This document shows positions 6,775 to 45,815 of a stretch of 54,445 nt of DNA, piece after piece (within the stretch, counting starts at the first letter, position 1; every line of letters starts with the position of its first letter). The stretch is from NCBI GenBank assembly GCA_016866785.1, contig VGLH01000009.1:1-54445 (forward strand), in the 5' to 3' direction. The notes below the pieces were generated by a model. That model ran no database searches and was not told the DNA's origin. It worked only from the letters and a program-made list of their open reading frames with translations. This stretch comes from Candidatus Poribacteria bacterium (GTDB lineage: Bacteria; Poribacteria; WGA-4E; GCA-2687025). The position numbers and the translations under genes were made by a program.

Positions 6775-8154
6775 TCAGCGGACCAAGACGATGGTGCCGA
6801 TCCTCACCTGACCGCCGATCTCGATCTGATAGACGTAGATGCCGCCTGGCAAGAGCTCGCCCGACTCGTCCCTGCCGTCCCACTGCGTGTCCTGCGGCGA
6901 AGGATCGAGCTGCCGCACCTTGCGACCGTGGAGATCGAAGAGCGTCACGACCATGTCGCCTTCGGCGTCGCCCAGCGCCCGCGTCGGGAACGTCACGCGA
7001 TTGAACGGCGCGTTCCCGAGCGGCGTGAACGGATTCGGGAACGGCGTTTCCAGCAGCACGTGCCACGTCTCCGTAGGGTCGGAGCGGTTGCCGGCTTCAT
7101 CCACGGCAACGACCGCGTACCGATACCGTCCGACGTCAAGACGCTCCCGGTGGAGGAACTCGTACTCCTTGGCTGCCGCATCGGCGGGAACCGTCGTCAG
7201 CACGACGGACGCTTCGCCAGCGCGAGCGAACATCAGGTCGTAGGAGACCACATCCGGGGAGGCGCTGGGAACCCAGCGGACCCCCGTGTTCTGGGCGATC
7301 GGTTCCACGATGACGACGGCAACCGGCTTCGGCGGGTTGGTGTCCCGACCAACCGTCGCCGACACAGCCCCCGAGCGCGCCGACACGACCAGCCGGCTCT
7401 TGTAGGCGGCAACCTCGTAGCGATGCGCGCCGGCTGGCACGTTCACATCGCGGAACGAGGTCCGATCCCTTCCCAGGGCGTCAGCGGGCAGCCCTCCGTC
7501 GCGATAGATGAGGTAGCCGGTGACATCGGCATCGTCGACAGGCGTCCAAGTCACAATCACGTCATTGTCGCCATCGGGGTCCGCGACGGCGGCGATGCCG
7601 GTCGGCGACGCAGGCGGGACGTTCGGGAACACTTCGAGTGTGTAGTCGTTGTTGTTCGCCGGATTCCCGTCGATCTCACCGGGCTTGATGAACTCGCCGA
7701 TCTGCAGGTCGGACAGGTTGCGGATGGCGATGCGAAACAGCGCTTCCTTCTGCGGGAGGTCTGGCGTCTGGACATCGAAAATGACTTCGATGATCGAGCT
7801 GAGGAAGTTGTCGATGGGGTTGGCGAGCGTGAAGCGTAGCGTCGTTCCGGCGGTGCTGCCGACGAAGGGAACCGGGGCTCCCTCGATCCGCACTTCCCGG
7901 AGGTCGCCGTCCGTGGCGACGAATCCCGCTGGCATGATGACCTGTACCGTCTTGATCTCCTCGCCTACCTCCGCCTGGGATCGGTCGACCAGGAGCGTCA
8001 GGATCAGCCGAGGCTTGGACGACGTGGGGACGCGCCCGCTGGGGTCGTTCAGGACGTTCAGTTCTCCGGTCGAGGAGACGGCGGCGTGGGCGGCGGGCGT
8101 CAGGCTCCACCATCCGCAGAGCGTCAGGGCGATGAGCGAGGCGATGCGTCTCAT
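6775..8154 (-). CDS. Secreted FN3-like protein with FlgD/T9SS-like C-terminal domain
   Basis: 459 aa with a signal peptide ending near AHA (about residue 24). The N-terminal half is beta-rich. One or two fibronectin type III-like modules follow (VIVTWTPVDDADVTGYLIYR near 200; VRWVPSASPDVVSYDLMF near 290). The last 90 residues carry the FlgD Ig-like / type IX-like C-terminal pattern: FPNPFTP, LFDLHGRKVRQL, W-DGRDESGELLPGGIYVYQI. Such domains are common at the C-terminus of proteins exported across the outer membrane in the FCB group. It closes the envelope cluster; the PorV-like gene ends 18 bases upstream. Role inferred: surface or secreted protein. Confidence 0.86.
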   Translation of the reverse strand: MRRIASLIALTLCGWWSLTPAAHAAVSSTGELNVLNDPSGRVPTSSKPRLILTLLVDRSQAEVGEEIKTVQVIMPAGFVATDGDLREVRIEGAPVPFVGSTAGTTLRFTLANPIDNFLSSIIEVIFDVQTPDLPQKEALFRIAIRNLSDLQIGEFIKPGEIDGNPANNNDYTLEVFPNVPPASPTGIAAVADPDGDNDVIVTWTPVDDADVTGYLIYRDGGLPADALGRDRTSFRDVNVPAGAHRYEVAAYKSRLVVSARSGAVSATVGRDTNPPKPVAVVIVEPIAQNTGVRWVPSASPDVVSYDLMFARAGEASVVLTTVPADAAAKEYEFLHRERLDVGRYRYAVVAVDEAGNRSDPTETWHVLLETPFPNPFTPLGNAPFNRVTFPTRALGDAEGDMVVTLFDLHGRKVRQLDPSPQDTQWDGRDESGELLPGGIYVYQIEIGGQVRIGTIVLVR

Positions 8155-8172
8155 GGCGTTCCCGTCGCCCTC

Positions 8173-9132
8173 CTAGAAGCTCACGCGAACGGAAAGGCGT
8201 TGGCTCGTGTTGTCTTTGACGGCGGCGTCGAGCACCTCGATCGCGAGGTCGAGATGCGCTTCGATCCCAGCGACGTCGAGCCGCAATCCGACTCCCGCCG
8301 TGACCGCCGACACGCTGCCTACGCCGGAAGCCGTGCGATAGCCGATCCGTGCCACAAGGCTGTCCGACAGACCGACCTCGGCGCCGACGCCAACGGTCGT
8401 CCCATCTCCGGCAGCGACCTCGGCGGCGACGAGACTGCGCGACAGCACGCCGCGCAGCGCCTCCTGTTCGGCGGACTCGGCGATTCGGCTCAACCGCAGG
8501 CTCGCCCCGACGCGGACGATCTGGGGCGCTTCATCCGGTTCCTCAGCTTCCTGAAACGACAGGTCTGCGGGAACCAGGTTCTGCGCGCTGATGCCGACGG
8601 CGACGCCCTGAACGGGAACCAGGAGGACGCCGGCATCCAGCGTCATCGCGCTGACATCGTAGACCGCGCCGAAGTAAGGGTTCTCCACGACGTCCGCGTT
8701 GGTGGAGTCGAGCCCGACGCGCAGGTGTTTCAACTGCGCCCCGATCTTGACGAACTCGGCGATCCGATGCGCATAGCCGATGCTGGCGGCTGTTTCGCGA
8801 TAGACCCCCGCCGCGTCCGACTGGGAGACGAACCCGATGCCGATGCCGCCGGGCCCCAACGACGACACGGCGAACACGGCGTCCTGCACGATGAGCGGTT
8901 CCGAGATGCCGGAGAAGAGCGCGGAGCGCGTCAACCCCACTTCGCGGCGACCCGTCAACGCGATCCCTGCGGGGTTGTAGGCGATCGTCGTCGCGTCGTC
9001 TGCGACCGCCGTGAAAGCGCCGCCGAGAGCCATCGGACGGGCTCCAGCCAGGGGCGACCGACCTGCCGCCGACGCCAACGTGGGCAACAGGAACAGGAGC
9101 CAGGGGATCGACAACCGACGCCGCATGGACAT
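8173..9132 (-). CDS. PorV/UPF0164-like outer-membrane beta-barrel protein
   Basis: 319 aa with a signal peptide (cleavage near ASA, residue 22). The segment ADDATTIAYNPAG near residues 44-56 is the hallmark of PorV/PorQ and UPF0164 outer-membrane proteins. The rest alternates hydrophobic and polar residues, and the protein ends in a C-terminal Phe (SVRVSF), as expected for a barrel inserted by Bam. In Bacteroidetes PorV carries type IX substrates to the cell surface. The two FlgD-tail proteins in this cluster make an analogous role plausible, but this is inference. It starts 4 bases after the chaperone gene ends. Confidence 0.86.
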   Translation of the reverse strand: MSMRRRLSIPWLLFLLPTLASAAGRSPLAGARPMALGGAFTAVADDATTIAYNPAGIALTGRREVGLTRSALFSGISEPLIVQDAVFAVSSLGPGGIGIGFVSQSDAAGVYRETAASIGYAHRIAEFVKIGAQLKHLRVGLDSTNADVVENPYFGAVYDVSAMTLDAGVLLVPVQGVAVGISAQNLVPADLSFQEAEEPDEAPQIVRVGASLRLSRIAESAEQEALRGVLSRSLVAAEVAAGDGTTVGVGAEVGLSDSLVARIGYRTASGVGSVSAVTAGVGLRLDVAGIEAHLDLAIEVLDAAVKDNTSQRLSVRVSF

Positions 9133-9136
9133 GACG

Positions 9137-10114
9137 CTAGCTTCCGTCTTGTGTCGGAGCCGTCTGCCGCGATGCGACGGTGGACTCCATCAGGCGAATA
9201 TCGGCTCTCGCACGCTCGTCCCGGAGCCAGCCGTCCATCACGACGCGGACGCGTTCCAGCTCGAGTTTGGCGATGATCGCTGCGCGCACGTCGGCGAGCG
9301 GCTGACGGGAGGCGTCCCGACGCTCTCGCAGGACGGCGACGAGGAACCCGCCCGGAACCCGTAGCGGCGCCGTCACTCCCGACACAGGCAGTTCCGCCAC
9401 AGCATCTCCGAGAGCCGCCGGAAGATCCGAAGCGAGCTTCAGACCGCTGTCGAGCACGACACGAATCGCCAGGTCGCCGTTGACCTGTTCCGCAAGCGCC
9501 TCCGGGGTCAACTCACCCGATGCGATACGCTCGCGCAACGCGACTGCTTTCCGCTGGGCGTCTGATTCGAGACTCGTCTCGCCGTCGAACTCGACGGTGA
9601 ACTGCGCGAGGCGAAACCGCGCCGGAACGCTGAACTCCTCGGGGTGCGCGACGTAGTAGGCTTCGACGTCCGTCGGGCTCACCTCGGTGATCTGTGGTCT
9701 GAAGTTGCGCAGCTCCAACTGGACGAGCATCAGGCTGTCGCGGATCTGCTCTCTGGCGTCGTCGAGCGTCATGCCTCGACGAGCGAGGTCGTCGATGAAC
9801 TGCTGCCGGCTGGGGAACGTGCCCTGGAGCCGCTCGAGGTGCTCGGAAACGCGCTCGTCGGTCACGAACGTGAAGTTCCGCGCCTTCTGCAAGAACAGGC
9901 GCTGATCGATGAGGGAGTCCAGCACGCGCCGCCGAGCGTTGGCATCCGCTGTATCCGCGTTCTCGACGCGCATCGCCATCGCGAGGGCGCTCGCGGTGAT
10001 CGCTTCGCCGTTCACGGCGGCGACGACGTAGTCGGCGAGAACGTCCGCCGTCTGAGCCCATGCCGCTCCGACGACCAGCGATACGCTGAACGCCGCCGCG
10101 ACGAGCCGCATCAT
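9137..10114 (-). CDS. SurA-like periplasmic peptidyl-prolyl isomerase/chaperone
   Basis: 325 aa from the ATG at 10114, which overlaps the stop of the upstream barrel gene (ATGA). A signal peptide (FSVSLVVGAAWAQ) is followed by a SurA N-terminal domain: DYVVAAVNGEAITASALA, then helices with RRRVLDSLIDQRLFLQKA. A parvulin-type PPIase region follows (VEAYYVAHPEEFSVPARFRL to VPGGFLVAVLRER) with a C-terminal helix. Family role: escorts unfolded outer-membrane proteins through the periplasm. Its place among barrel and secreted-protein genes suggests service to this cluster. The PPIase core looks divergent, so catalysis is unsure. A longer reading to 10306 would overlap the upstream gene deeply and lacks a signal peptide. 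Confidence 0.85.
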   Translation of the reverse strand: MMRLVAAAFSVSLVVGAAWAQTADVLADYVVAAVNGEAITASALAMAMRVENADTADANARRRVLDSLIDQRLFLQKARNFTFVTDERVSEHLERLQGTFPSRQQFIDDLARRGMTLDDAREQIRDSLMLVQLELRNFRPQITEVSPTDVEAYYVAHPEEFSVPARFRLAQFTVEFDGETSLESDAQRKAVALRERIASGELTPEALAEQVNGDLAIRVVLDSGLKLASDLPAALGDAVAELPVSGVTAPLRVPGGFLVAVLRERRDASRQPLADVRAAIIAKLELERVRVVMDGWLRDERARADIRLMESTVASRQTAPTQDGS

Positions 10115-11769
10115 GGCAGGAGCTCCCACTGTCTGTCCACGATGCCGAACCACGTGGTCGTCGCCTTTCCGAGATCGTCCCATCGGCGCTTCACGCCCAT
10201 TCGTAGCATCGTATTCGCGCTCCGAGCGGTCGCCTGGATGGATGCGTCGTCGAGCTGCGCCCCCGAACCTGGCTCCGGAACCACCAGACCGACGCTGGCG
10301 AGGCACGTCAGAGCGTTCCGAAGCCGGATCGTCGACAGGAGCATTCCTCCCACCTGTCGCGGCAGGTCGGGTCGGCGAAGCTCCCAGCCGCGCACGCCGA
10401 ACCGGGCGCTGCCCATCGAAGTGCGCAGCGTCAACTCGACACGCCGTCGTATGCTGTTCAGGTCATCCACGTTGCCGATCTGGTTCGACCAGACCCCGCC
10501 GAGGCGTATTCTACGCACTATTGGCGACGAAAACCAGACTCGCGTGTCGATCCGCGCCGTTGCGGTCGCTAAACGCTCCTCGGACAGAAACTGACCGCCG
10601 ATCCGGGCGCGTCGAGTCGGCGCGAGCTGCCCTCTGGCGAAGATTCCTTGCCGTCCGCTCGCGTGGCTGCCCAACGGCGCGATGAATCGAACCGGAACGT
10701 GGTAGGCGTTCAGAGCCAGTCGAGCGTTGGGTCCTCTCGCGGCGAGTTCGAGCCGGGCGGCGACCTCCCCGGCGTGGGCGGCTTCGCCGCGCCATCGGAG
10801 CCCGCCGACAGCGCCGTGCGCGTCGACAGAGAACGTCCTTCGCGGGGACGGGTCGCGCCCGAGGATCGGCGTTCCCACCAAGCTGCGTTCCGACTGGACG
10901 GTCCACGCGACGGCGGCGCGGCCGGCTGGAAGCGCGAGCTCGGCGCGCGCGCCTGCCGACCGCTCCTCAAGGGCTCCATCGACGGATCGGGATCGCGCCA
11001 AGCCGGTTTGCGCAGGGCTCAACGACGCCGTTTTGGGAATGATGGATCGGAACCCGGTGAGAGCGGCGCGCTCGCTGCTCCATGTCGCCGCGACGCCCCT
11101 CTGCCGCGCCGTCGATGCGACGTTGGGCGAGATGCCGTTCGGGTAACGGCGGTTGCCGGTGTTCGCCGCCAACCCCGTGCCGAACCCGACCGAGAAGTCG
11201 CCTGCGACGGCGTGCAGCTCTGGATGCGCCCATTCGACGTATCCGCGCGTTAGGCGCGAAGGTTCCCGCTCGCGGACGACACCCATGCGTCGATCCCATC
11301 GCAGCGCCTCGGCGCCGCCGGAGGACTCGGCTGCGGCGACGGTGAATCCGGTTGCGGGAGTGGCTCGGACGAAGCCGGTCAGGACGCCTCGCTCGCCATC
11401 GGATCGGTGATCGGTGAAGCGCTGTCGGACGCGCGCCGTTCGTGGCGCATCTGACGCCTCGTAAACGAACGACGAGCTCGAATCGGGCAAGGGCTCAACC
11501 GACAGCCCATCTTGCCCCCAATCCCTCGATGGGCTGAGCGGGAGCTCCTGCATGACGCTCAGCTCATCGGGACTTGCTTCCCGCAAGCTCAACGGCAGAT
11601 CGAACCACTCGCGCAACTGGAGCCACTCCGCGAACGTTACCTCCCCCTCTTCGAGCCAGGCATCGACGTCCGACGGTTCCGATAGCACGGCGTGGTCAGG
11701 CGGTTCGTAGCCATGCAGCGGCGAGGCGATCAGGCAGAGCGCGCAAAGGGCGCGAGCCGCGCGGTTCAC
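10111..11769 (-). CDS. Large predicted outer-membrane beta-barrel with degenerate helix-hairpin-helix N-terminus
   Basis: 552 aa from a GTG at 11769 that overlaps the previous stop (GTGA). A signal peptide (ALCALCLIASPLHG) is followed at about residues 25-85 by an acidic helical region. Within it, 'LSLREASPDELSVMQELPLS' resembles one ComEA-like helix-hairpin-helix repeat but lacks the glycine of its hairpin. From about residue 100 on, the sequence is regular alternating beta-strand, Arg/Ala/Gly-rich, consistent with a 16 or more stranded barrel. Helix-hairpin-helix plus barrel proteins are known in FCB bacteria but uncharacterised. Flanked by PorV-like and SurA-like genes. No enzymatic motif seen. 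Confidence 0.78.
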   Translation of the reverse strand: MNRAARALCALCLIASPLHGYEPPDHAVLSEPSDVDAWLEEGEVTFAEWLQLREWFDLPLSLREASPDELSVMQELPLSPSRDWGQDGLSVEPLPDSSSSFVYEASDAPRTARVRQRFTDHRSDGERGVLTGFVRATPATGFTVAAAESSGGAEALRWDRRMGVVREREPSRLTRGYVEWAHPELHAVAGDFSVGFGTGLAANTGNRRYPNGISPNVASTARQRGVAATWSSERAALTGFRSIIPKTASLSPAQTGLARSRSVDGALEERSAGARAELALPAGRAAVAWTVQSERSLVGTPILGRDPSPRRTFSVDAHGAVGGLRWRGEAAHAGEVAARLELAARGPNARLALNAYHVPVRFIAPLGSHASGRQGIFARGQLAPTRRARIGGQFLSEERLATATARIDTRVWFSSPIVRRIRLGGVWSNQIGNVDDLNSIRRRVELTLRTSMGSARFGVRGWELRRPDLPRQVGGMLLSTIRLRNALTCLASVGLVVPEPGSGAQLDDASIQATARSANTMLRMGVKRRWDDLGKATTTWFGIVDRQWELLP

Positions 11770-12572
11770 GGTTGAGCGCCGATCGCGATGGAGACCGAGT
11801 GCGTAGCGGACAGCGCGGAGTGGGTCTCGACGGCGTAGACCAGCAAGAAGCCGTCTCGCCGCAGCGTGAAGCCGGTCGCCCACTGCCAGGGGTGGCTGTG
11901 GACGCCTCCGGCGAGCGTGAGCCAGTCAGCGCCGCGCCATTCGACGCCGACGGCAACGCCGCTCTCATCGCGACGGCGGTACAGGTCGGCGAATACCGTG
12001 CTGGCGTCATCGATGCGCATCTCGGTGCCGATGCGGTATTCGCGCGGCGGCGTTCCGCGAGTCGTCCGAACGCGACGCACCGAGCCTCCGAGACCGATGG
12101 TCGGCTGAACACGCGCCTGAAGCCCTACGTCGGCGCTCCAAGCTCCTCGGCGGTCATGATCCGCGACGCGATGCGAGTAGGACGACCCTCGGACTCCAGC
12201 CGACACGGCTCCAATCCGGTACGCGCCTCCGAGGCTCGCCGTGTCTTCTACGTAGAGGTCATTCCCGAAGCGATCCCACCGGCTGGAGAGCGTCGCCGTG
12301 GAGCCCACGGGCAGCACGCCGCCGACCGACTGCTCGGACAGCCCTGCGACACCGAACGGGCGGCAATAGGCGGCGTCCACCCAGGTCCCACTCGATGAAG
12401 CCGGGTTCAGCGCGCCGGAGACACGGGCGCGGGTGTCGGCAACCCCGCTCCTGCCGATGGCGATGTTCGCCGGCGCGAGGGGTTCTCGCTCGAACGATGC
12501 CAGCGCGTTGCCTGGAGCCCACGTCGCGGCGATAGCAGCCAACGCGGAGAGGGCCCAAGCTCGGTGGGTCAT
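11766..12572 (-). CDS. PorV-like predicted outer-membrane protein, divergent
   Basis: 268 aa, signal peptide ending at NALA (about residue 25). The segment ANIAIGRSGVADTRARVSGA followed by LNPAS corresponds to the PorV/UPF0164 motif in which an asparagine-proline-alanine turn closes the first hairpin. The rest is alternating beta-strand. It overlaps both neighbours by 4 bases (GTGA with the barrel downstream; ATGA with the LTD gene upstream), so the three are translated as a block. Related in pattern to the protein at 8173-9132 but clearly divergent. Function inferred from motif and context only. Confidence 0.75.
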   Translation of the reverse strand: MTHRAWALSALAAIAATWAPGNALASFEREPLAPANIAIGRSGVADTRARVSGALNPASSSGTWVDAAYCRPFGVAGLSEQSVGGVLPVGSTATLSSRWDRFGNDLYVEDTASLGGAYRIGAVSAGVRGSSYSHRVADHDRRGAWSADVGLQARVQPTIGLGGSVRRVRTTRGTPPREYRIGTEMRIDDASTVFADLYRRRDESGVAVGVEWRGADWLTLAGGVHSHPWQWATGFTLRRDGFLLVYAVETHSALSATHSVSIAIGAQP

Positions 12573-13930
12573 GGCTCGGAGACGACAATCGCCAGCGCAG
12601 CCGCGCGAGGACGGTTCTCAGACACGGCGAGCAGTTGGATGATGTAGATGCCCGTGGGAACCGACTCGCCGGCGTCGTTCTTGCCATTCCACTCCATCGA
12701 CTGCCTGCCGGAGTAGGGAGATTCCGACGCGAGGACGCGCACCAGCACCCCGGCGCTGTTGAAGATACGGAGCGTCACGGTCGACGAGATGGGCGCTTCG
12801 TAGCGGATGGCGAGAGCCCCGTGCGACGGGTCGAACGGGTTCGGAGAGGCGTCCAGCACCGGTCGTTCGCCGGTGTCATGGCGGACGCTGTTCTCGAGAC
12901 CGGGCGTCGATCCCGCCTGCGAGACCGAGAGCCGCCAGTTGTCGAGGCGAGCGGAGTCGTCACCCGGTTCGCGTCTCTCGAGCGACTGTCCGGGCGTGAC
13001 ATCGAGCGAGCCGTAGGTCATCGTGTCGATGCTCGTGCTGTCTCCCGCGTTCACCGCGACGGTATCGCCCGTGTCGTTGAGCGTTGGCAGCGCGATTTCG
13101 AGGACGACGGTGTCGAGAGGCAGGTTCGGGTGCGCGGTTCTGAGCTCGTCGGCGCTGCGCGTCAGGAGGATGTACGCCTTTGCCGGGAACACGGCGGACG
13201 GAATCTCGACGGGCAGGTTCCGCGCGTCCGAGATGGTCCAGCCCTGCATGAGAACCGGCACATCGCCGCCGTTGTGGAGCTCGACCCACTCCGGCGCATC
13301 GGTCTTGGGTCGGAACATGATCTCGTTGACGACGACGATTCCGGCAGCGGGAGGCTGGGGCTGAGCGGACGGCTTGGGCTTCGGCGGACTCGTCTCGCGA
13401 CCGATGGTGGTTCCGGTCGCGTCGGTCGAGAGTTGCCAGTTCTCCGGCGCGTCTGCCGCCCAGATGTTGATTCGCTCGAACGAAACGCCGCTCCGCGCCG
13501 CGGTGGGAGGCGTAAACGTGTCTTGGAGCGTGCCGTTCGCGTCAAACAGCCGGATCGGGTCCGTCGTCGAGAGCCCGTTCCCGATGGAGGCGTTCGTCGG
13601 CTTCAGGCGTAGCGTTCCGTCGGGGATTGCGTACTGGTTGTCGTAGTCCGGGTCGAGAATGACCGCGAAGGAATGGGGAGCCAGTTCCGCGGAGTCCGTG
13701 GCGACGAATGGGACGAGAACGTCTTTGGCGTCGCGGTCGGCGATCTGCCAGCCCTTGAGGTCGACGGGTTCGTCGCCGGGGTTGAAGAGCTCGACGAACT
13801 CGCCGGCTTTTTGCCCTCCCTGCGCCTCATTCGGGTTCGCCATCACCTCGGTGACGACGACGCTTCCGGCGTGGATGGGTTCCACCGCCAGCAGCAACAG
13901 AACGCACAGCGCGACGGCGGTCCGGCTCAT
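12569..13930 (-). CDS. Secreted protein with two lamin-tail domains and FlgD-like C-terminal domain
   Basis: 453 aa. The ATG at 13930 was chosen because AGAGGAA lies 5 bases upstream and a signal peptide (MSRTAVALCVLLLLAVEPIHA) follows directly. Two LTD (lamin-tail) Ig-like domains: about 22-150 (VVVTEVMANPNE, GEFVELFNPGDEPVDLKGW) and 185-310 (VVVNEIMFRPKT, PEWVELHNGGDVPVLMQGW). A Pro/Lys-rich linker separates them. The C-terminal 90 residues are a FlgD Ig-like tail (ASPNPFDPSHGALAIRY, LRIFNSAGVLVRVL, W-NGKNDAGESVPTGIYIIQL). LTD proteins are usually surface-bound or secreted. The tail pairs it with the FN3 protein at 6775-8154 as a probable client of the same export route. Confidence 0.87.
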   Translation of the reverse strand: MSRTAVALCVLLLLAVEPIHAGSVVVTEVMANPNEAQGGQKAGEFVELFNPGDEPVDLKGWQIADRDAKDVLVPFVATDSAELAPHSFAVILDPDYDNQYAIPDGTLRLKPTNASIGNGLSTTDPIRLFDANGTLQDTFTPPTAARSGVSFERINIWAADAPENWQLSTDATGTTIGRETSPPKPKPSAQPQPPAAGIVVVNEIMFRPKTDAPEWVELHNGGDVPVLMQGWTISDARNLPVEIPSAVFPAKAYILLTRSADELRTAHPNLPLDTVVLEIALPTLNDTGDTVAVNAGDSTSIDTMTYGSLDVTPGQSLERREPGDDSARLDNWRLSVSQAGSTPGLENSVRHDTGERPVLDASPNPFDPSHGALAIRYEAPISSTVTLRIFNSAGVLVRVLASESPYSGRQSMEWNGKNDAGESVPTGIYIIQLLAVSENRPRAAALAIVVSEP

Positions 13931-39227: not shown

Positions 39228-39836
39228 CTAGCGCGCCTTGATGGCAGCCCACGTCGTCGTGCTCTTGCCTTCCGGCTCGACAGCGGTCGGCAGGTCCATC
39301 GGCACGTAGGTGCCCTCGAACCAGCGCACGTCATCGATCCAGAAGTCGAGGTCGTTCTCGGCGATGTGGAGCGTCAGGGACGCTGGCTTCACAAGGGCCG
39401 CGGGCTTGAACTCGACGTAGTACTCTTTCCAGGTCGTCGTCGTCGCCATCATCTTCTCGCCGTACGCCGTCCACGGATCCGCCGACAGCTCGGGCTTGAA
39501 GTTGATGTTCTTCGGACCCTCGGACTTCACCCACGCCGCGAACGTGTACTGCGTGTTCGCCTTGAACTCGATGCCGGGGTTGTACTGGAAGCCCGAATCC
39601 CAGAAGTTGGCGCCCTTCTTGGCGACCGTGACCATCGCGCTCGCCTTGCCCGTGTGCTTCTGAGTCGTGTCGAGCTTGAGCTGCGCATCGCCGTACGTGA
39701 CGAACGGGTCCGTGTTGCCGGCTTCGAAATCGCCGTTCTTCGCCAGGTTGGCGACTGCCGCACTTGCGCTGAGAGCAACCCCCATCATCAGGGCGAGACA
39801 GCCGGTTGCCACACGCGCGGAGAATCGATCGTGCAT
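39228..39836 (-). CDS. Secreted carbohydrate-binding-like protein with TTW-type C-terminal tail
   Basis: 202 aa, AAGGAG 9 bases upstream of the ATG. A signal peptide (ending near SAAVA, about residue 28) leads to one beta-sandwich domain like CBM4/9 family carbohydrate-binding modules: NLAKNGDFEAGNTDPFVTYG, ASAMVTVAKKGANFWDSGFQ, KANTQYTFAAWVKSEG, TWKEYYVEFKP, LDFWIDDVRWFEG. The last 18 residues (AVEPEGKSTTTWAAIKAR) match the tails of three other secreted proteins in this window. No catalytic residues. Probably binds polysaccharide at or outside the cell surface. Promoter at 39919-39947. Confidence 0.85.
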   Translation of the reverse strand: MHDRFSARVATGCLALMMGVALSASAAVANLAKNGDFEAGNTDPFVTYGDAQLKLDTTQKHTGKASAMVTVAKKGANFWDSGFQYNPGIEFKANTQYTFAAWVKSEGPKNINFKPELSADPWTAYGEKMMATTTTWKEYYVEFKPAALVKPASLTLHIAENDLDFWIDDVRWFEGTYVPMDLPTAVEPEGKSTTTWAAIKAR

Positions 39837-39918
39837 CTGAAGACTCCTTGGAGTTATGCCGTGCGCGCTACCACGTAACCTCTGATAGCCGTTGGAGGTG
39901 ACGGGGCGCTACGTAGAG

Positions 39919-39947
39919 AGTATGTCTCTCCGGCAACCGCGGTGCAA
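39919..39947 (-). promoter_or_regulatory. Predicted promoter of secreted CBM-like gene
   Basis: On the minus strand: -35 TTGCAC (39947-39942), 17-base spacer, -10 CATACT (39924-39919). Predicted start near 39912, about 76 bases before the ATG. A 5-bp inverted repeat (GAGAG/CTCTC, 39916-39930) spans the -10. Confidence 0.55.
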
Positions 39948-39977
39948 GACTCGTGCGTTAGGTGCCCGGCTGGCGTT

Positions 39978-40970
39978 CTACTCGTGCCCGCCGTCGTGTC
40001 CGCCTGGAGGCGTCGTGCCATCGAACGAGTCGAAGCCGGCGTAGACGACGGTCGTTCCCATCCCGCTCTCAGCGTGATGGAGCTCGTGGCAGTGGAACAT
40101 CCAGACACCTGGGTTGTCCGCGACGATGTAGGCGTCGAACGTCTGGCCGGGCGAGATATTGAGCGTGTTGACCCTCTGCGGGACGCTCAACGGCTCGCCG
40201 TCCTGCGCCATCACGATCAGGTCGTGACCATGGATATGCATCGGATGCTGGCCGTTGCTGAGGTTCAGTAGCCGCAGTCGGATGCGTTGCCCCTTCTGCA
40301 CGCGGATGGGCTCCGTTTGCGGGTAGAGCTTGCCGTTGATGCTCCACGCGTTGTAGTCGCCAGCCGCACCGTGTCCGGCCATCGCCGGCATGTCCGCAAC
40401 CCACCCGTTGAGCATCAGCGTGTACTCGGCGTCGAAGCGGGGCTGGCCCGCGGCCTTCTGCGGGTCGATGACGAACACGCCGTAGAGTCCCTTGTCGATC
40501 TGTTCTGCCTCGGTCCCAAGCCCATGGGGATGGTACATGAACGTGCCCGCATGACTCGCCATGAAGTCGTAGACGCGCGTCTCGCCGGGCTGGATGAGAG
40601 GCTGATTCAGCGGCGCGGCTCCATCCTGCTGGTAGGGTAGATGGAGACCATGCCAGTGAACCGACGTGGGCTCGGGCAGTTCGTTCGTGACGGTGATCCG
40701 TACGCGGTCGCCTTCGGTAACGCGCAGCGTCGGGCCCGGCACCTGGTCGTTGAAGGCATAGGCGTCGACGAGGACGCCATCGCCCAGATCATGGATCATC
40801 GGACGCGCCGTCAGTGTGAACTCCCGCAGCTTGCCGGTGGGCGTGATGCTCGTCGTCTGCGGCAAGGTGAAAAGCTCATCCGACTCGCCGCACCCCGTCC
40901 AAGCGGCGGCTGCCAACGCGAGCACGCACAGGGCCATGAGGGCAGCGCGCGCAGCAGAATGTGCGTTAAT
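39978..40970 (-). CDS. Multicopper oxidase (laccase-like)
   Basis: About 330 aa. Start uncertain: an ATT at 40970 has GGGAGGAG 5 bases upstream, while GTG at 41036 lacks a ribosome site. Two cupredoxin domains carry the four HxH copper motifs: VHWHG, MYHPHG, HPMHIHGH and HCHELHHAESGM, including the type 1 Cys and axial Met. An N-terminal hydrophobic stretch ends at WTGC, a weak lipobox, so it may be a periplasmic lipoprotein. Oxidises metals or phenolics and reduces O2 to water. The protein is shorter than three-domain laccases. The Gly/His-rich C-terminus (GGHDGGHE) may bind metal. Located next to COX IV. Confidence 0.88.
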   Translation of the reverse strand: MNAHSAARAALMALCVLALAAAAWTGCGESDELFTLPQTTSITPTGKLREFTLTARPMIHDLGDGVLVDAYAFNDQVPGPTLRVTEGDRVRITVTNELPEPTSVHWHGLHLPYQQDGAAPLNQPLIQPGETRVYDFMASHAGTFMYHPHGLGTEAEQIDKGLYGVFVIDPQKAAGQPRFDAEYTLMLNGWVADMPAMAGHGAAGDYNAWSINGKLYPQTEPIRVQKGQRIRLRLLNLSNGQHPMHIHGHDLIVMAQDGEPLSVPQRVNTLNISPGQTFDAYIVADNPGVWMFHCHELHHAESGMGTTVVYAGFDSFDGTTPPGGHDGGHE

Positions 40971-41091
40971 CGTGGCTCCTCCCAGGACGGTGGATGAATG
41001 ACCAGACGCCACGATCCCGGTGAGGGACCCTGGCACCTTGCGTAAGGGGTTGCGGCGGCCGCGACGTGGAGGGGACCCACGCCGCCCAACG

Positions 41092-41481
41092 TCAGTGTCC
41101 GGACGGCGCTTCGGCCTGCGCCGCCTGAGACGTGTGTTCCCACCCGCCGCCGTCGACGGTTCGGATGTCGCTCTTCACCAGCATGACCAAGATCAGGCTG
41201 AGGACGAACGGCGACACTGCCATCCACGCGACCAGGCGCTTCTCGAAACGGACGTGCATGTAGTAGCTCGCGACGAGGATCGCCTTCACGCCGGCGACGA
41301 CCAGGAGAGCGAGGATCATGACGCCGCCCATGCCGCGCATGAGCGCGGGAATGGACAACTCGACGACCGTCAGGACGGCAAGAGCTCCGAAGACGAACCA
41401 GTACGAACGATCGTGGGATTCGTGCTTGGCGCTGGCGTGAGCGCCGGCAGACGTGGGCGCTGCCACGGTTGTTCTCCTCAT
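41092..41481 (-). CDS. Cytochrome c oxidase subunit IV (CtaF/COX IV family)
   Basis: 129 aa from the ATG at 41481, with GAGG upstream. Three membrane helices: SYWFVFGALAVLTVVELSI, MGGVMILALLVVAGVKAILV, WMAVSPFVLSLILVMLV. The YYMHVRFEKR loop is typical of prokaryotic COX IV proteins of caa3-type oxidases. Small accessory subunit at the inner membrane. It follows the SDR-COX III gene by 32 bases, and no subunit I or II gene lies within the window. Confidence 0.9.
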   Translation of the reverse strand: MRRTTVAAPTSAGAHASAKHESHDRSYWFVFGALAVLTVVELSIPALMRGMGGVMILALLVVAGVKAILVASYYMHVRFEKRLVAWMAVSPFVLSLILVMLVKSDIRTVDGGGWEHTSQAAQAEAPSGH

Positions 41482-41513
41482 GTCGCCTCGTGTCACCGGC
41501 ACGAGCAGAGTTG

Positions 41514-43172
41514 CTAGAACAGATAGAGGATCGTAAACAGGATGATCCACACGAGATCGACGAAGTGCCAATACAAGCCGACCATCTCGACGGCGTTGTG
41601 CCGCGCCGCCGTGTACTTGCCCCGCAACGCCCGGACGAACAGAGCCGCCAGCATGATGACGCCGATGGTCACGTGTGCGCCGTGGAAGCCCGTCAGCGTG
41701 TAGAAGAATCCCCAGAACTGGTTCTCCATCGGCTTGTGGTGCGCCAGGAAGTGCGCCCACTCATACGCCTGCAGCCCGACGAAGATCGAGCCGAATAGGA
41801 TCGTCAGACCGAGGAACACACGGAACTTGCCTTGTTTGTTCTCCTGAACGCCTGACAGCCCCAGCACGAGCGTCATACTGCTCATGATAAGGATGAACGT
41901 CATCGACGCGACGAGTCCGAGGTTCAGGTCGGTCGGCCGGGGCCACTGCGGCGTCGCGTTCCGAACGACGATGTAGGCTCCGATGAGCCCCGTGAAGAAC
42001 ATGACTTCCGATGCCAGAAAGACCCACATGCCGAACTTCGCCAGGGAAACTCCCGTGTTCGACGGCGGGATCGGATGATGGTAGACGACCCACTTGCCGC
42101 CGCGACGGCGCGACGACGACGCGACGGCTACGGCAGCGGAGACGTTCATAGGCTGATAGGCTCCAGATCCTGCGTAGGCGATATTCTGCGGAGTGAACGG
42201 GATCGCCTTCACCTCCAGATCACGGAAGAAGGGCAGCTCGTTGCAGACGTTGCCTTCCATGAGCATGTCCAGTTGGTCGCGCGTGATGGGCAGCAGACGG
42301 CGGAGAAAACGGATGCTCAGCAGTATGCGGATCAGGAACGCCGGGACAGGGGCTTTCCATCGAGGCTTGCTTCGACCGAGACCGGCTCCGATCACGTCGA
42401 GCAACTCGCCCCAGCGGAAGCGTGCCTTGCCGCCGACTTCGTAGGTCTTGCCCTTCGCAGCATCGACCGCGAGCGACTTCACGATGCCCTCGGCGAGGTT
42501 CTCGATGGCGACCGGCTGTAGCTCGAAGGGCGAACCGTCACGCGCCAGGCTCTCTTGCCAGCGCCGGGCGAACGGCACGAATCCCTTCACCAATGCAGCG
42601 AGCGACGGCAATCCTTCTCGGAACAGGGGGAGAGGGATGATCCCCGGCAGACCGAACATGTCCTTCGCCAACTGCGAGACGAACTCCGGTTGCCCCTTGC
42701 TCGGCTTTCCGAACACCACCGACGGACGGAAGATCGTGTAGTCCATCCCGCTCTGGCGCAGATGCTCTTCCGCCTCGAACTTGGTCCACTGATACGCGGA
42801 GGAGGCGTCGGCTCGCGGTTTCGCACCGTTGGCGCTCATCAGGAGGAACCGCTTGACGCCTGCGCTCTTTGCGGCGTCGATGACGTTCTTGGCTCCCTCC
42901 AGGTGGATCCGCTGGAAGGTGACGCCAGCATCGGGGACTTCCCGGAGGATGCCGACCAGGTGAACCACGGCTTCGACGCCGTCGAGCCCTGGGGTGAGCG
43001 TGTCCGCCTGGGTGATGTCGCCGTGGACGACCTCGACGCGGTCGGCGAGCTCGCCCAGTTTCGATTCGCTGCCGCGTCGCAGCAGCACGCGGACGTCGTG
43101 TCCCGCCGACAGCAACTCGCGCAGTACATAGCTGCCGACGAAGCCGGTCGCGCCGGTCAGGAAGACCTTCAT
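41514..43172 (-). CDS. Fusion: NDUFA9-like SDR domain plus cytochrome c oxidase subunit III
   Basis: 552 aa in one uninterrupted frame. Residues 1-325 are an atypical SDR of the NDUFA9/complex I subunit type: MKVFLTGATGFVGSYVLREL with NAD-binding TGATGFVGS, Y-x-x-x-K (YQWTK), and IFRPSVVFGKPSKGQP. Around residue 340 (MNVSAAVAVASSSRRR) a subunit III begins, with five helices: LAKFGMWVFLASEVMFFTGL, ASMTFILIMSSMTLVLGL, LGLTILFGSIFVGLQAYEW, LTGFHGAHVTIGVIMLAALF and VGLYWHFVDLVWIILFTILY. Standard COX III genes are separate. The domain boundary has a plausible internal ATG, so separate translation is possible. Confidence 0.85.
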   Translation of the reverse strand: MKVFLTGATGFVGSYVLRELLSAGHDVRVLLRRGSESKLGELADRVEVVHGDITQADTLTPGLDGVEAVVHLVGILREVPDAGVTFQRIHLEGAKNVIDAAKSAGVKRFLLMSANGAKPRADASSAYQWTKFEAEEHLRQSGMDYTIFRPSVVFGKPSKGQPEFVSQLAKDMFGLPGIIPLPLFREGLPSLAALVKGFVPFARRWQESLARDGSPFELQPVAIENLAEGIVKSLAVDAAKGKTYEVGGKARFRWGELLDVIGAGLGRSKPRWKAPVPAFLIRILLSIRFLRRLLPITRDQLDMLMEGNVCNELPFFRDLEVKAIPFTPQNIAYAGSGAYQPMNVSAAVAVASSSRRRGGKWVVYHHPIPPSNTGVSLAKFGMWVFLASEVMFFTGLIGAYIVVRNATPQWPRPTDLNLGLVASMTFILIMSSMTLVLGLSGVQENKQGKFRVFLGLTILFGSIFVGLQAYEWAHFLAHHKPMENQFWGFFYTLTGFHGAHVTIGVIMLAALFVRALRGKYTAARHNAVEMVGLYWHFVDLVWIILFTILYLF

Positions 43173-43284
43173 TCTCTCTCCGCCACGCGTCGCGTCTGGT
43201 GTGCGGTCGTATAGTACAGGAGCGCACTGCCCGGTCCGGTGGACCCAGACCGTCGTTGTCCCTCGTGCTCACCGGTGACCCAAA

Positions 43285-43299
43285 CGATATCAGATATCG
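43285..43299. repeat. 7-bp inverted repeat, 1-base spacer
   Basis: CGATATC-A-GATATCG, about 110 bases upstream of the SDR-COX III gene on the minus strand and past the ThuA terminator hairpin. AT-rich in a GC-rich setting, so a candidate protein-binding site. Function unknown. Confidence 0.4.
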
Positions 43300-43350
43300 G
43301 CTGGGCTTGACAACGACGTTTGCCGTGGCTAGGGGCGCAGAGCACGACGA

Positions 43351-43376
43351 AGGCGGGGGTTCAGACGCCCCCGCCT
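43351..43376 (-). terminator. GC-rich hairpin after ThuA-like gene, probable terminator or 3' stabiliser
   Basis: Perfect 9-bp stem AGGCGGGGG / CCCCCGCCT with 8-base loop, 22 bases after the ThuA-like stop on the minus strand. No U-run follows, so it is either a non-canonical terminator or an mRNA end-protecting hairpin. Confidence 0.5.
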
Positions 43377-43397
43377 GTGGTTGAGTTCGCGGCTCGT

Positions 43398-44171
43398 TCA
43401 GCGCGACTTGAAGCCCGCCCAGGTCGCCGCCAGCCGCCCTTCGGGTTCCACGGGCGTTACCGCGCTCAGCATGGAGGCGATGAAGAACAGCCCGTTGCCC
43501 AGCAAGGGCTTCGCCGGTTCGGTGCGACCGTCGTCGCGCGTGTCGATGCACGCCGTGACGTAGACTCCCTTGCCATATGGCAGGTAGGCGGCAGCCACCT
43601 CCCCGTTGTCCTTGCGCTTGGCGAGGACGACCCAGGACTTGTCCACGCCGGCGAAGTTGTCGTCCAGCACCATCGCGTTCATATCGGCGGCGTTCGGCTT
43701 CGAGAACAGGCCGGATTTCGCACCGTCCGCCGTGATCTCGACGTCCGAATCCGCCGTGTTCTGGACGGTCACGGGGTGTTCGTCGATGGGCATCCAGCCT
43801 CCGACCTGCTTGCCGGCGGCGTCCTTGAAGTTGTCATCGAAGGCTGAGATCCAGATGCCTCCGCCCGCCTTCACCCAGTCACGCACCTTCGCCTCGGAAC
43901 CCGCCATGAAGTAGAGACCGTCATGTCCCGGCGCGTTCCACGGCATCCAGATGATCTGCGCGCCGCGCATGTTCCCGTCGAACGTGCCGCCCTCGATGAC
44001 GACGCGTTCATAGGTGAAGTTGTGCGCTCCGGCGCTCTTGATCGCCTCGAGCGCGTCCATCTCCTTGGATCGCGCGTCGCCGATGAGGATCAGAACCTTG
44101 AAGTTCGCAGCCCAAGCCGTCGAACCGACCAGAGCCATCGCCGCCACGGCGAGTGCAACCGTCCGTCTCAT
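43398..44171 (-). CDS. Secreted ThuA-like (class I glutamine amidotransferase fold) protein with TTW-type tail, copy 2
   Basis: 257 aa, GGGAGAG upstream. A signal peptide (ending near STAWA) leads to a ThuA-like flavodoxin/GATase fold: FKVLILIGDARSKEMDALEA, GTFDGNMRGAQIIWMPWNAP, GHDGLYFMAGSEAKVRDWVK, GGGIWISAFDDNFKD, DEHPVTVQNTADSDVEITAD. ThuA domains occur in trehalose/carbohydrate-utilisation proteins, function unproved. The tail VEPEGRLAATWAGFKSR matches the shared motif. More than half of positions match the neighbour at 44261-45040, so a tandem duplicate. Confidence 0.85.
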   Translation of the reverse strand: MRRTVALAVAAMALVGSTAWAANFKVLILIGDARSKEMDALEAIKSAGAHNFTYERVVIEGGTFDGNMRGAQIIWMPWNAPGHDGLYFMAGSEAKVRDWVKAGGGIWISAFDDNFKDAAGKQVGGWMPIDEHPVTVQNTADSDVEITADGAKSGLFSKPNAADMNAMVLDDNFAGVDKSWVVLAKRKDNGEVAAAYLPYGKGVYVTACIDTRDDGRTEPAKPLLGNGLFFIASMLSAVTPVEPEGRLAATWAGFKSR

Positions 44172-44223
44172 CGTCTTCTCTCCCTATCGGATGGCATCAT
44201 GCCGCCGACGTCTGGACGGGCCG

Positions 44224-44243
44224 CGCAGCCGCCGTCGGCTGCG
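44224..44243 (-). terminator. GC-rich hairpin between the two ThuA-like genes
   Basis: 8-bp stem CGCAGCCG / CGGCTGCG with 4-base loop, about 17 bases after the stop of the upstream ThuA-like gene (minus strand). No U-run. Its position matches the hairpin after the second copy, so each copy may carry its own 3' structure. Confidence 0.45.
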
Positions 44244-44260
44244 ACTGCGCGGGAACCGGC

Positions 44261-45040
44261 CTACTCCGCTCGCAGCGTTCCCCAGGTCGTCGCCGCCTTC
44301 CCGGCGGGCGACACGGCGAGGCTCGATTCGAGCCAGTTCGCCAGGAACAGGAGCCCGTTGGCGATGAGCGGCGTCGCCGGAGCCATCTTTCCGGCGTCGC
44401 GCGTGTCGATGCACGCCTCCACGTAGACCCCCTTGCCCCACGGCAGATAACACGCGGCCGGCTGGCTATTGTCCTTCCGTGTGGCGAGGATCACCCACGA
44501 CTTGTCCAACGAGGCGAAGTTGTCGTCGAGGACGATCGCGTTCATATCGACCTTGTTCGGCTTGGCGAACAAGCCCGATTTGTTCCCGTCCGCTGTGATG
44601 TCGACGTCGGAATCCGCCGTGTTCTGCACGACGATGGGGTGCTTGTCGATAGGCATCCAGGAACCGACCTGCTTGCCGTTGGGGTCGGTGTACGCGTCAT
44701 CGAACGCCGAAATCCAGACGACACCCCCGTCGTTGACCCACTGCTTGAACTTCTCCTCGGAGCCGCCCATGAAGTACGCGCCATCGTGACCGGGCCCGTT
44801 CCAAGGGAACCACACGATCTGCGCCCCGCGCATGTTCCCGTCGAACTTCCCTCCCTCGATCTTCACCTCCTCGAACTCGAACGTATGCGGAGCGACGGAC
44901 TTCGTCGCGACGACGACCGCCGCCTCTTGGTTCCGAGCATCGCCGTTCAGCACGAGAACCTTGTACTTCCCAGCCAACGCGACGGGAGCCAGCAGGCAGA
45001 GCGCAAGGGCGATCACGAGTGACCGCGGTCCTCTCACCAT
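44261..45040 (-). CDS. Secreted ThuA-like protein with TTW-type tail, copy 1
   Basis: 259 aa from the ATG at 45040, with AGGAGG 7 bases upstream. Signal peptide (SLVIALALCLLAPVALAG) and ThuA-like fold as in the neighbour: YKVLVLNGDARNQEAAVVVA, GGKFDGNMRGAQIVWFPWNG, GHDGAYFMGGSEEKFKQWV, GGVVWISAFDDAYTDPNG, NTADSDVDITADGNKSGLFA. The family's usual GATase catalytic Cys is not evident. Tail AVSPAGKAATTWGTLRAE. A GC-rich hairpin follows. Substrate unknown; surface or periplasmic carbohydrate handling is inferred from fold relatives. Confidence 0.87.
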   Translation of the reverse strand: MVRGPRSLVIALALCLLAPVALAGKYKVLVLNGDARNQEAAVVVATKSVAPHTFEFEEVKIEGGKFDGNMRGAQIVWFPWNGPGHDGAYFMGGSEEKFKQWVNDGGVVWISAFDDAYTDPNGKQVGSWMPIDKHPIVVQNTADSDVDITADGNKSGLFAKPNKVDMNAIVLDDNFASLDKSWVILATRKDNSQPAACYLPWGKGVYVEACIDTRDAGKMAPATPLIANGLLFLANWLESSLAVSPAGKAATTWGTLRAE

Positions 45041-45059
45041 GGCTTTCCTCCTTTCTGCA

Positions 45060-45815
45060 TCAGTTCGCGGTTCTGAGCGTCCCCCATGTGACGGTCGCCT
45101 TGCCGTTGGGCTGAACCGCGAGGCTATTGGACTTCGCCTTGTAGTTCTGAGCGACCTCCTTCTCGGTGAGTATTCTCTTGTAGATGCGTACCTCATCGAC
45201 CATGCCGTTGAGATAGCGGCCGTCGTGTTCGCTTCCGACGCGCATCGCGTTCAGGTTGTTCGCCGTCGCTCCGGCGACACCCTGGATGACGAACGCGCCA
45301 TCCACGTAGAGCTTCAGCTCGTTCGCGCCTGTGTCCGATGTGTAGACGATGTGGTACCACGTGTTGATCGCCGCCGGAGCGACGATCTTGACGCCGTCGT
45401 TCTTATGCGCCTGAATCTGGTTGCTCTCGAACTTGAAGTGGACCGTGCCGGCCTTCCACTCGCCGCCGCCAAAGGTCGAGACGATTCCCCGGATGCTGCC
45501 GAACTCACGCGCGTGAGCCCACGCCTCGACGCTTACCGCCTTCTCATCGCCCAGCTTGGGGATTTCGATGAAATCGGTTGTACCGTTGAGGTCGATGGCT
45601 TCGCCGATCTTCCCGGCGACGGACTTCGGGTTCCCGCTGATCTTGCCGTCGTGCTTGCCCATGGCATCCGCTGCGACGGCCCCCTTGATCGACGCTTTGT
45701 CGAACGTGTAGTGGGCGATGAGCCCATCCACGACGAACTCCTGCGCCGTCGCCGAGACGGCAGCGACCGTCAGCATGCCGACAATGATCCACCGTGATAC
45801 GCCCAGTGACTTCAT
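45060..45815 (-). CDS. Secreted LamG (concanavalin-like) domain protein with TTW-type tail
   Basis: 251 aa from the ATG at 45815. Signal peptide (IIVGMLTVAAVSATAQ) and one LamG/concanavalin A-like domain: DGLIAHYTFDKASIKG, DLNGTTDFIEIPKLGDEKAV, SVEAWAHAREFGSIRGI, TWYHIVYTSDTGANELKLYV, MVDEVRIYKRILTEKEVAQN. Tail SLAVQPNGKATVTWGTLRTAN matches the shared motif. Likely binds glycans at the surface. Three 11-bp repeats containing AGGAG lie just upstream and may set its translation. The cupin gene ends 95 bases upstream. Confidence 0.88.
   Translation of the reverse strand: MKSLGVSRWIIVGMLTVAAVSATAQEFVVDGLIAHYTFDKASIKGAVAADAMGKHDGKISGNPKSVAGKIGEAIDLNGTTDFIEIPKLGDEKAVSVEAWAHAREFGSIRGIVSTFGGGEWKAGTVHFKFESNQIQAHKNDGVKIVAPAAINTWYHIVYTSDTGANELKLYVDGAFVIQGVAGATANNLNAMRVGSEHDGRYLNGMVDEVRIYKRILTEKEVAQNYKAKSNSLAVQPNGKATVTWGTLRTAN

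Follow-up and report, generated by a model that had tools for sequence, protein, structure and literature searches.

A short C-terminal peptide on exported proteins of Poribacteria, probably an undescribed address label

Four exported proteins encoded on a 54,445-nucleotide stretch of a Candidatus Poribacteria genome (GenBank assembly GCA_016866785.1, contig VGLH01000009.1; hereafter the window) end in similar short peptides, which we call tails and which are the subject of this report (Table 1). An earlier note on the window, made from its sequence alone, had pointed these tails out. Each lies where the note placed it and reaches the stop codon, and all are on the minus strand. The note had also read a signal peptide at the start of each protein, and our heuristic likewise finds one of classical type in all four. 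The carriers comprise a CBM_4_9 protein, a LamG-type lectin and two ThuA-like proteins, A and B. While Pfam bears out the labels CBM-like and LamG, the ThuA-like pair has no Pfam match, and its label comes from fold comparison: the AlphaFold model of the window ThuA-like protein has structural matches to the solved ThuA-like proteins 1t0b (TM ~0.5) and 4e5v and to other amidotransferase-like folds. The start of protein B was set at the onset of its signal peptide; the mechanical open reading frame (ORF) extends to position 45196.

Table 1. Tail-bearing proteins of the window, their tails, and an outer membrane protein considered below.
Feature	Coordinates	Strand	Length (amino acids)	C-terminal end	Basis
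CBM_4_9 exported protein	39228..39836	(-)	202	TAVEPEGKSTTTWAAIKAR	Pfam CBM_4_9; heuristic signal peptide
Tail 1 (CBM_4_9 protein)	39231..39287	(-)			profile match 6.1e-9
ThuA-like exported protein A	43398..44171	(-)	257	TPVEPEGRLAATWAGFKSR	heuristic signal peptide
Tail 2 (ThuA-like protein A)	43401..43457	(-)			profile match 4.1e-8
ThuA-like exported protein B	44261..45040	(-)	259	LAVSPAGKAATTWGTLRAE	heuristic signal peptide; AlphaFold
Tail 3 (ThuA-like protein B)	44264..44320	(-)			profile match 5.4e-8; AlphaFold: low-confidence, beyond folded domain
LamG-type lectin, exported	45060..45815	(-)	251	LAVQPNGKATVTWGTLRTAN	Pfam Laminin_G_3; heuristic signal peptide
Tail 4 (LamG-type lectin)	45063..45122	(-)			profile match 5.2e-9; AlphaFold linker and helix
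PorV/PorQ-family and PorP/SprF-like outer membrane protein	8173..9033	(-)			NF033709 4.3e-18, TIGR03519 1.2e-11 (below curated cut-offs); PF11751 7.7e-8 (above cut-off)

These four tails belong to a set of about 90 in the genome. A first profile of 20 columns, built from 23 tails, was searched against the whole assembly (a 4.35 Mb metagenome-assembled genome in 291 contigs, 95% complete). It gave 101 matches at E <= 10 (best 5e-10), nearly all of them C-terminal, whereas a control profile with reversed columns gave two, both at E > 3, indicating that the tail is not a product of chance. A few additional true tails were recovered from the weak end of the match list. Identical matches at the start of one contig (C126) and the end of another (C227) of this assembly (G000) resemble one gene divided over two contig ends, so that match counts slightly exceed gene counts. 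Among the 91 matches for which ORFs were read, the core is a mostly ungapped run of 17 residues, [LT]-[AP]-V-[EDSQ]-P-x-[GD]-[KR]-[AL]-A-x-x-W-[AG]-x-[LIM]-[KR]. Nearly all of these ORFs have one to five residues between the core and the stop codon and a signal peptide at the start, and most of those that deviate are fragments at contig ends or have an uncertain start. The valine is present in 88/91 tails, the proline in 80/91 and the tryptophan in 90/91, and K or R stands ahead of the tryptophan in 87/91 and follows it in all 91. The pattern first proposed thus had the right spacing, V-x-P-x-[GD]-[KR]-x4-W-[AG]-x-h-[KR], and was too strict in its residues: T precedes W in only 37/91 tails, the supposedly fixed G can be D or others, and the hydrophobic position near the end, given as [LIF], also admits M or V.

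Occurrence of the tail is all-or-none and closely linked to export. Genes were called in 624 kb made up of the window and of regions fetched around tail matches, giving 563 ORFs, each scored by its best tail match in the last 45 residues. The scores are bimodal, with 92 ORFs at 20 bits or above and the remaining 471 at 0.5 or below, and there are no internal copies in the 563 ORFs; the tail is always C-terminal. A signal peptide was called by heuristic, with alternative start codons allowed for both sets alike, in 85 of the 92 tail ORFs (~92%) versus 89 of the 471 others (19%; p ~1e-42), in regions which, being selected around tail genes, do not yield the share of tail carriers among all exported proteins. 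The true contrast is probably stronger, because several of the others with a signal peptide call are evident false positives (e.g., Gfo/Idh dehydrogenases). Of 102 further tail ORFs, read for the most part from other members of the phylum, 83 have a signal peptide by the same heuristic, and 17 of those without a call are cut by the end of the locus. As the earlier note had predicted, the tail occurs nowhere but at the very end of its carriers, which are exported and differ widely in fold, and we found no clearly cytoplasmic protein that ends in it. A lipobox cysteine is flagged in only 4/92 tail ORFs, and lipoprotein sorting was set aside on that count; by eye, most of the flagged proteins have the cysteine within the hydrophobic core and an AxA site downstream. 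One carrier, a DUF362 protein with the N-terminus MYTRREFLG, has a twin-arginine (Tat-type) motif. At 20.5 bits its tail matches less well than others; if real, it would make the tail independent of the export route.

The proteins that carry the tail are otherwise diverse. When 22 residues were trimmed from the start and 24 from the end of 88 tail proteins, the remaining bodies formed 28 groups, between which no similarity could be detected. Laminin_G_3 is the Pfam domain of 36/87 tail proteins, and others carry 3-keto-disaccharide hydrolase-like, CBM_4_9, CBM9_1, NPCBM, DUF4960, Kelch, PD40 propeller or PKD domains. In the AlphaFold model of the LamG-type lectin, run with an alignment of 37 paralogues, the per-residue confidence (pLDDT) exceeds 90 across much of the LamG domain, falls to ~50 in a linker (residues 227-239) and is moderate in the helix that follows (240-250). 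The tail of the window ThuA-like protein (242-257) is modelled as a short helix with pLDDT < 50. In both models, then, the tail stands outside the folded domain and is not, as the note had allowed, a piece of a structured one; the 28 body groups and the two models together rule out that it belongs to the LamG domain. The LamG model also matches receptor-binding lectin domains of toxins, a likeness of fold only that has no functional meaning here. Conservation along the core is more strongly periodic near 80-120 degrees than near 180 degrees, which weakly favours a helix. The carriers thus share one layout: an N-terminal export signal, a folded cargo domain of nearly any type, a flexible linker and, at the C-terminus, a short conserved peptide.

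Beyond this genome, the tail is universal in the phylum and confined to it among the genomes searched. A profile of 17 columns, built from 66 tails, finds 13-99 tails per genome at E <= 0.001 in 85/85 genomes of the phylum, which cover more than one class, ten families and 22 genera. A wider search of 240 genomes returned the tail in those 85 and in 0/155 genomes outside the phylum (1e-5), and in a named panel of 49 genomes, drawn from many phyla, no match was below 0.017. Two genomes that lie outside the window's class have tail proteins with the same layout. Presence in all 85 genomes, including these two, suggests that the tail was probably already in the ancestor of the phylum.

It is the peptide, rather than the DNA, that appears to be maintained. 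In pairwise comparisons of the tails, identity is 46% at third codon positions, where the codon usage of these genes predicts 45%, and 63% at positions one and two. Since third positions are at the codon-usage expectation, the tails are not recent DNA copies, and an origin as a DNA-level repeat or by recombination is ruled out by the same statistics. ThuA-like proteins serve as a control for the link to export. In the set of genomes searched, 82 others of the phylum have a homologue of protein B, and no genome from outside the phylum has one. Ten exported ThuA-like proteins, two of them the window pair, end in the tail (degenerate in two of the ten), whereas 23 that are fused to a beta/gamma-crystallin domain have neither signal peptide nor tail. 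With exported members mostly tailed and crystallin-fused ones never, the tail follows export in this family, if not absolutely. A cytoplasmic protein of ~475 amino acids combining beta/gamma-crystallin and ThuA-like parts was seen in more than 20 genomes (loci L286-L308).

We conclude that the tail is probably an address label, so far undescribed, for proteins that leave the cell. On the sequence evidence, we lean with some confidence towards a C-terminal sorting or anchoring signal that acts after export across the inner membrane. The earlier note had proposed a sorting, anchoring or processing signal, and this is partly supported: what it said of export, placement, diversity of folds and novelty holds, but the single co-occurring processing gene that it also predicted was not identified. 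In the pathway we envisage, the protein would cross the inner membrane by Sec (in one case perhaps by Tat), and the tail would then dock in a dedicated outer membrane receptor, which would transfer the protein to the cell surface or anchor it there; if the protein is cleaved at all, the linker would be the site. The likeliest receptor and translocon may be the divergent type IX-like apparatus of the phylum, with its SprA translocon, PorU-like sortases and several PorV-family shuttles per genome, for which the tail would be a second, short signal class beside the FlgD_ig-type C-terminal domains (CTDs) of large proteins. We put this assignment forward tentatively, as the best of several candidates and with well under even confidence.

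Homologues of SprA, PorU and PorV, as would be expected if the tail were a type IX signal, are all encoded here, albeit in divergent form. Two SprA-like ORFs of ~2,200 amino acids match TIGR04189 (6e-42, 2e-44). Peptidase_C25 (PorU-like) is found in 82/83 genomes of the phylum, and PorU-like C25 proteins match NF033707 at 1e-104 to 1e-115, three of the four scanned also matching FlgD-like C-termini. The PorV family (7-23 matches per genome) and FlgD_ig (19 to at least 58) are both present in 83/83 genomes. The genome of the window has its own copy of type IX-like parts (G000:C144:1-5278; L176, L266). Type IX secretion has been placed in Bacteroidota only (PMC4793230, PMC12618676), although SprA-like, PorU-like and PorV-family proteins are phylum-wide here. 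In Flavobacterium, distinct PorP/SprF-like shuttles recognise distinct type B signals, whereas PorV recognises type A (PMC12618676). PMC11969387 and work cited there describe type IX CTDs that can be cut down to three strands, and report that the last 22 residues of the Hbp35 CTD are necessary for secretion and attachment. Signal-specific shuttles, CTDs that can be shortened and the requirement for the last residues of Hbp35 make it plausible that a type IX apparatus could accept a second, shorter signal.

The window itself encodes a protein of the PorV/PorQ family (8173..9033), which by its sequence is a possible candidate for the type of receptor that would recognise the tail. It is flanked by proteins with FlgD_ig/CHU_C-type C-termini (6775-8154 and 12569-13930, the latter also with a Lamin Tail Domain), and a SurA-like peptidyl-prolyl isomerase (9137-10114) lies in the same stretch (6775-13930). 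Elsewhere in the window, an NAD-dependent epimerase-like domain and cytochrome c oxidase subunit III share a single ORF of 552 residues (41514-43172), which represents either a true fusion or a sequencing error.

Several observations weigh against our reading of the tail, and mostly against the type IX-like route. Type IX CTDs are beta-strand domains of 40-80 residues with motifs B, D and E (PMC11969387, PMC11285876), whereas the tail has 17-20 residues and is predicted to be a short helix and not a beta-sandwich. None of the CTD models (Por_Secre_tail, CHU_C, TIGR04183, TIGR04131) is among the 25 most frequent Pfam/NCBIfam matches listed for 87 tail proteins. SprA_N is above threshold in only 23/83 genomes, and the SprA-like and PorU-like proteins and the window PorV-like protein all fall below curated NCBIfam cut-offs. 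The signal expected for type IX secretion, FlgD_ig, is already carried by other proteins in these genomes, and the tail may therefore take a different route. Genomic context points to no partner either: 50 same-strand neighbours of tail genes include no recurrent operonic one, and belong mostly to sugar-metabolism families (Gfo/Idh, 5; xylose isomerase-like, 4) or are singletons. Nor can presence and absence single out a partner, because every genome of the phylum has the tail. With regard to export, signal peptides were called by the heuristic and not by SignalP, and two apparently exported ThuA-like proteins with another N-terminal region (L281, L285) lack the tail.

It is also possible, if somewhat less likely than the type IX-like route, that the tail sorts proteins through a dedicated system in the outer membrane that has no relation to type IX secretion. 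Confinement of the tail to one phylum among the genomes searched, unlike the parts of type IX systems, would suit such a system, as would the fact that no model match or predicted fold is common to the tail and type IX CTDs and that FlgD_ig proteins seem to occupy the type IX route already. Yet no candidate machinery was found, PorV-family proteins are already many, and in Flavobacterium each type IX signal has its own shuttle (PMC12618676). Should this alternative hold, and we give it a minority chance, the whole phylum would use an undescribed C-terminal signal, with a receptor and outer membrane machinery of its own, for surface placement of dozens of exported proteins per genome. Because the tail would be a sorting signal here too, our confidence in this alternative overlaps with that in the general claim. 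A docking tag, by which exported and mostly carbohydrate-binding domains attach to a scaffold at the surface or in the periplasm, much as dockerins attach to cohesins, is in our view doubtful. The flexible linker before the tail fits this idea, as do the many carriers that are small, single-domain and lectin-like (Laminin_G_3, CBMs, NPCBM) and weak cohesin and dockerin matches in the same genome; beta-propellers, DUF362 and ThuA-like proteins are carriers as well, however, no scaffold with a repeated receptor was found, and a dockerin is much longer than the 17 residues of the tail. An exported protein of 1005 residues (L142:945-3962) has weak matches to both cohesin and dockerin and a FlgD_ig C-terminus. 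Still less probable is a tag for stability, folding or proteolysis, such as a handle for a periplasmic chaperone or protease, with no role in localisation: a short, exposed, conserved C-terminal peptide would suit such a partner, but the final residues vary in number and identity, the conserved part is not last, and the genome has many ORFs, exported and lipoprotein-like, that do not carry the tail. Finally, although about half of the carriers are in one LamG-type group and many tail genes adjoin each other (36 adjacency counts), it is very improbable that the tail is a functionless 3′ end shared by recombination or by descent from one LamG family, an idea already contradicted by the third codon positions and opposed by the 28 unrelated body groups and the retention of the tail in every genome of the phylum.

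Whole systems for export or anchoring have repeatedly been discovered by way of a C-terminal sorting signal. A signal for sorting or anchoring, as we favour for the tail, makes a definite prediction, namely a receptor for a 17-residue peptide, and the simple tail pattern serves to annotate dozens of proteins in each genome. These genomes combine two schemes of C-terminal tagging, one of FlgD_ig domains and the other of tails, the latter mostly on small proteins.

The note knew of no named signal with such a pattern, and we concur: no Pfam or NCBIfam model was found to cover the tail, no PDB chain matches it, and a literature search by topic and by consensus string found no description of it. 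The distinctions that the note drew from LPXTG, PEP-CTERM and GlyGly-CTERM signals, and its statement that the tail has no hydrophobic helix, are likewise supported by motif counts in 91 tails and by hydropathy (best 15-residue window in the last 25: median 0.44, maximum 1.06). In the PEP-CTERM/exosortase system, too, many exported proteins that are otherwise unrelated end in a short recurrent tail, and the processing enzyme is unlinked. This likeness extends to related tripartite signals, but all of these require a hydrophobic transmembrane segment and a basic end, whereas the tail has no transmembrane helix; PEP-CTERM-like models are not among the most frequent matches listed for tail proteins. 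LPXTG/sortase and GlyGly-CTERM/rhombosortase resemble the tail as C-terminal sorting of signal-peptide proteins, and differ in their LPXTG or Gly-Gly motif and transmembrane segment, all of which the tail lacks. The C-terminal signal of type I secretion was excluded, since its carriers lack the signal peptide that tail carriers have. Encapsulin and microcompartment targeting peptides are short, terminal and often amphipathic helices that follow a linker on unrelated cargo; that cargo is cytoplasmic, whereas tail proteins are exported. Like type IX CTDs of type A or B (Por_Secre_tail, CHU_C, FlgD_ig-like), the tail is C-terminal on signal-peptide proteins of many folds, joined by a linker, without a transmembrane helix, and present in many copies per genome.

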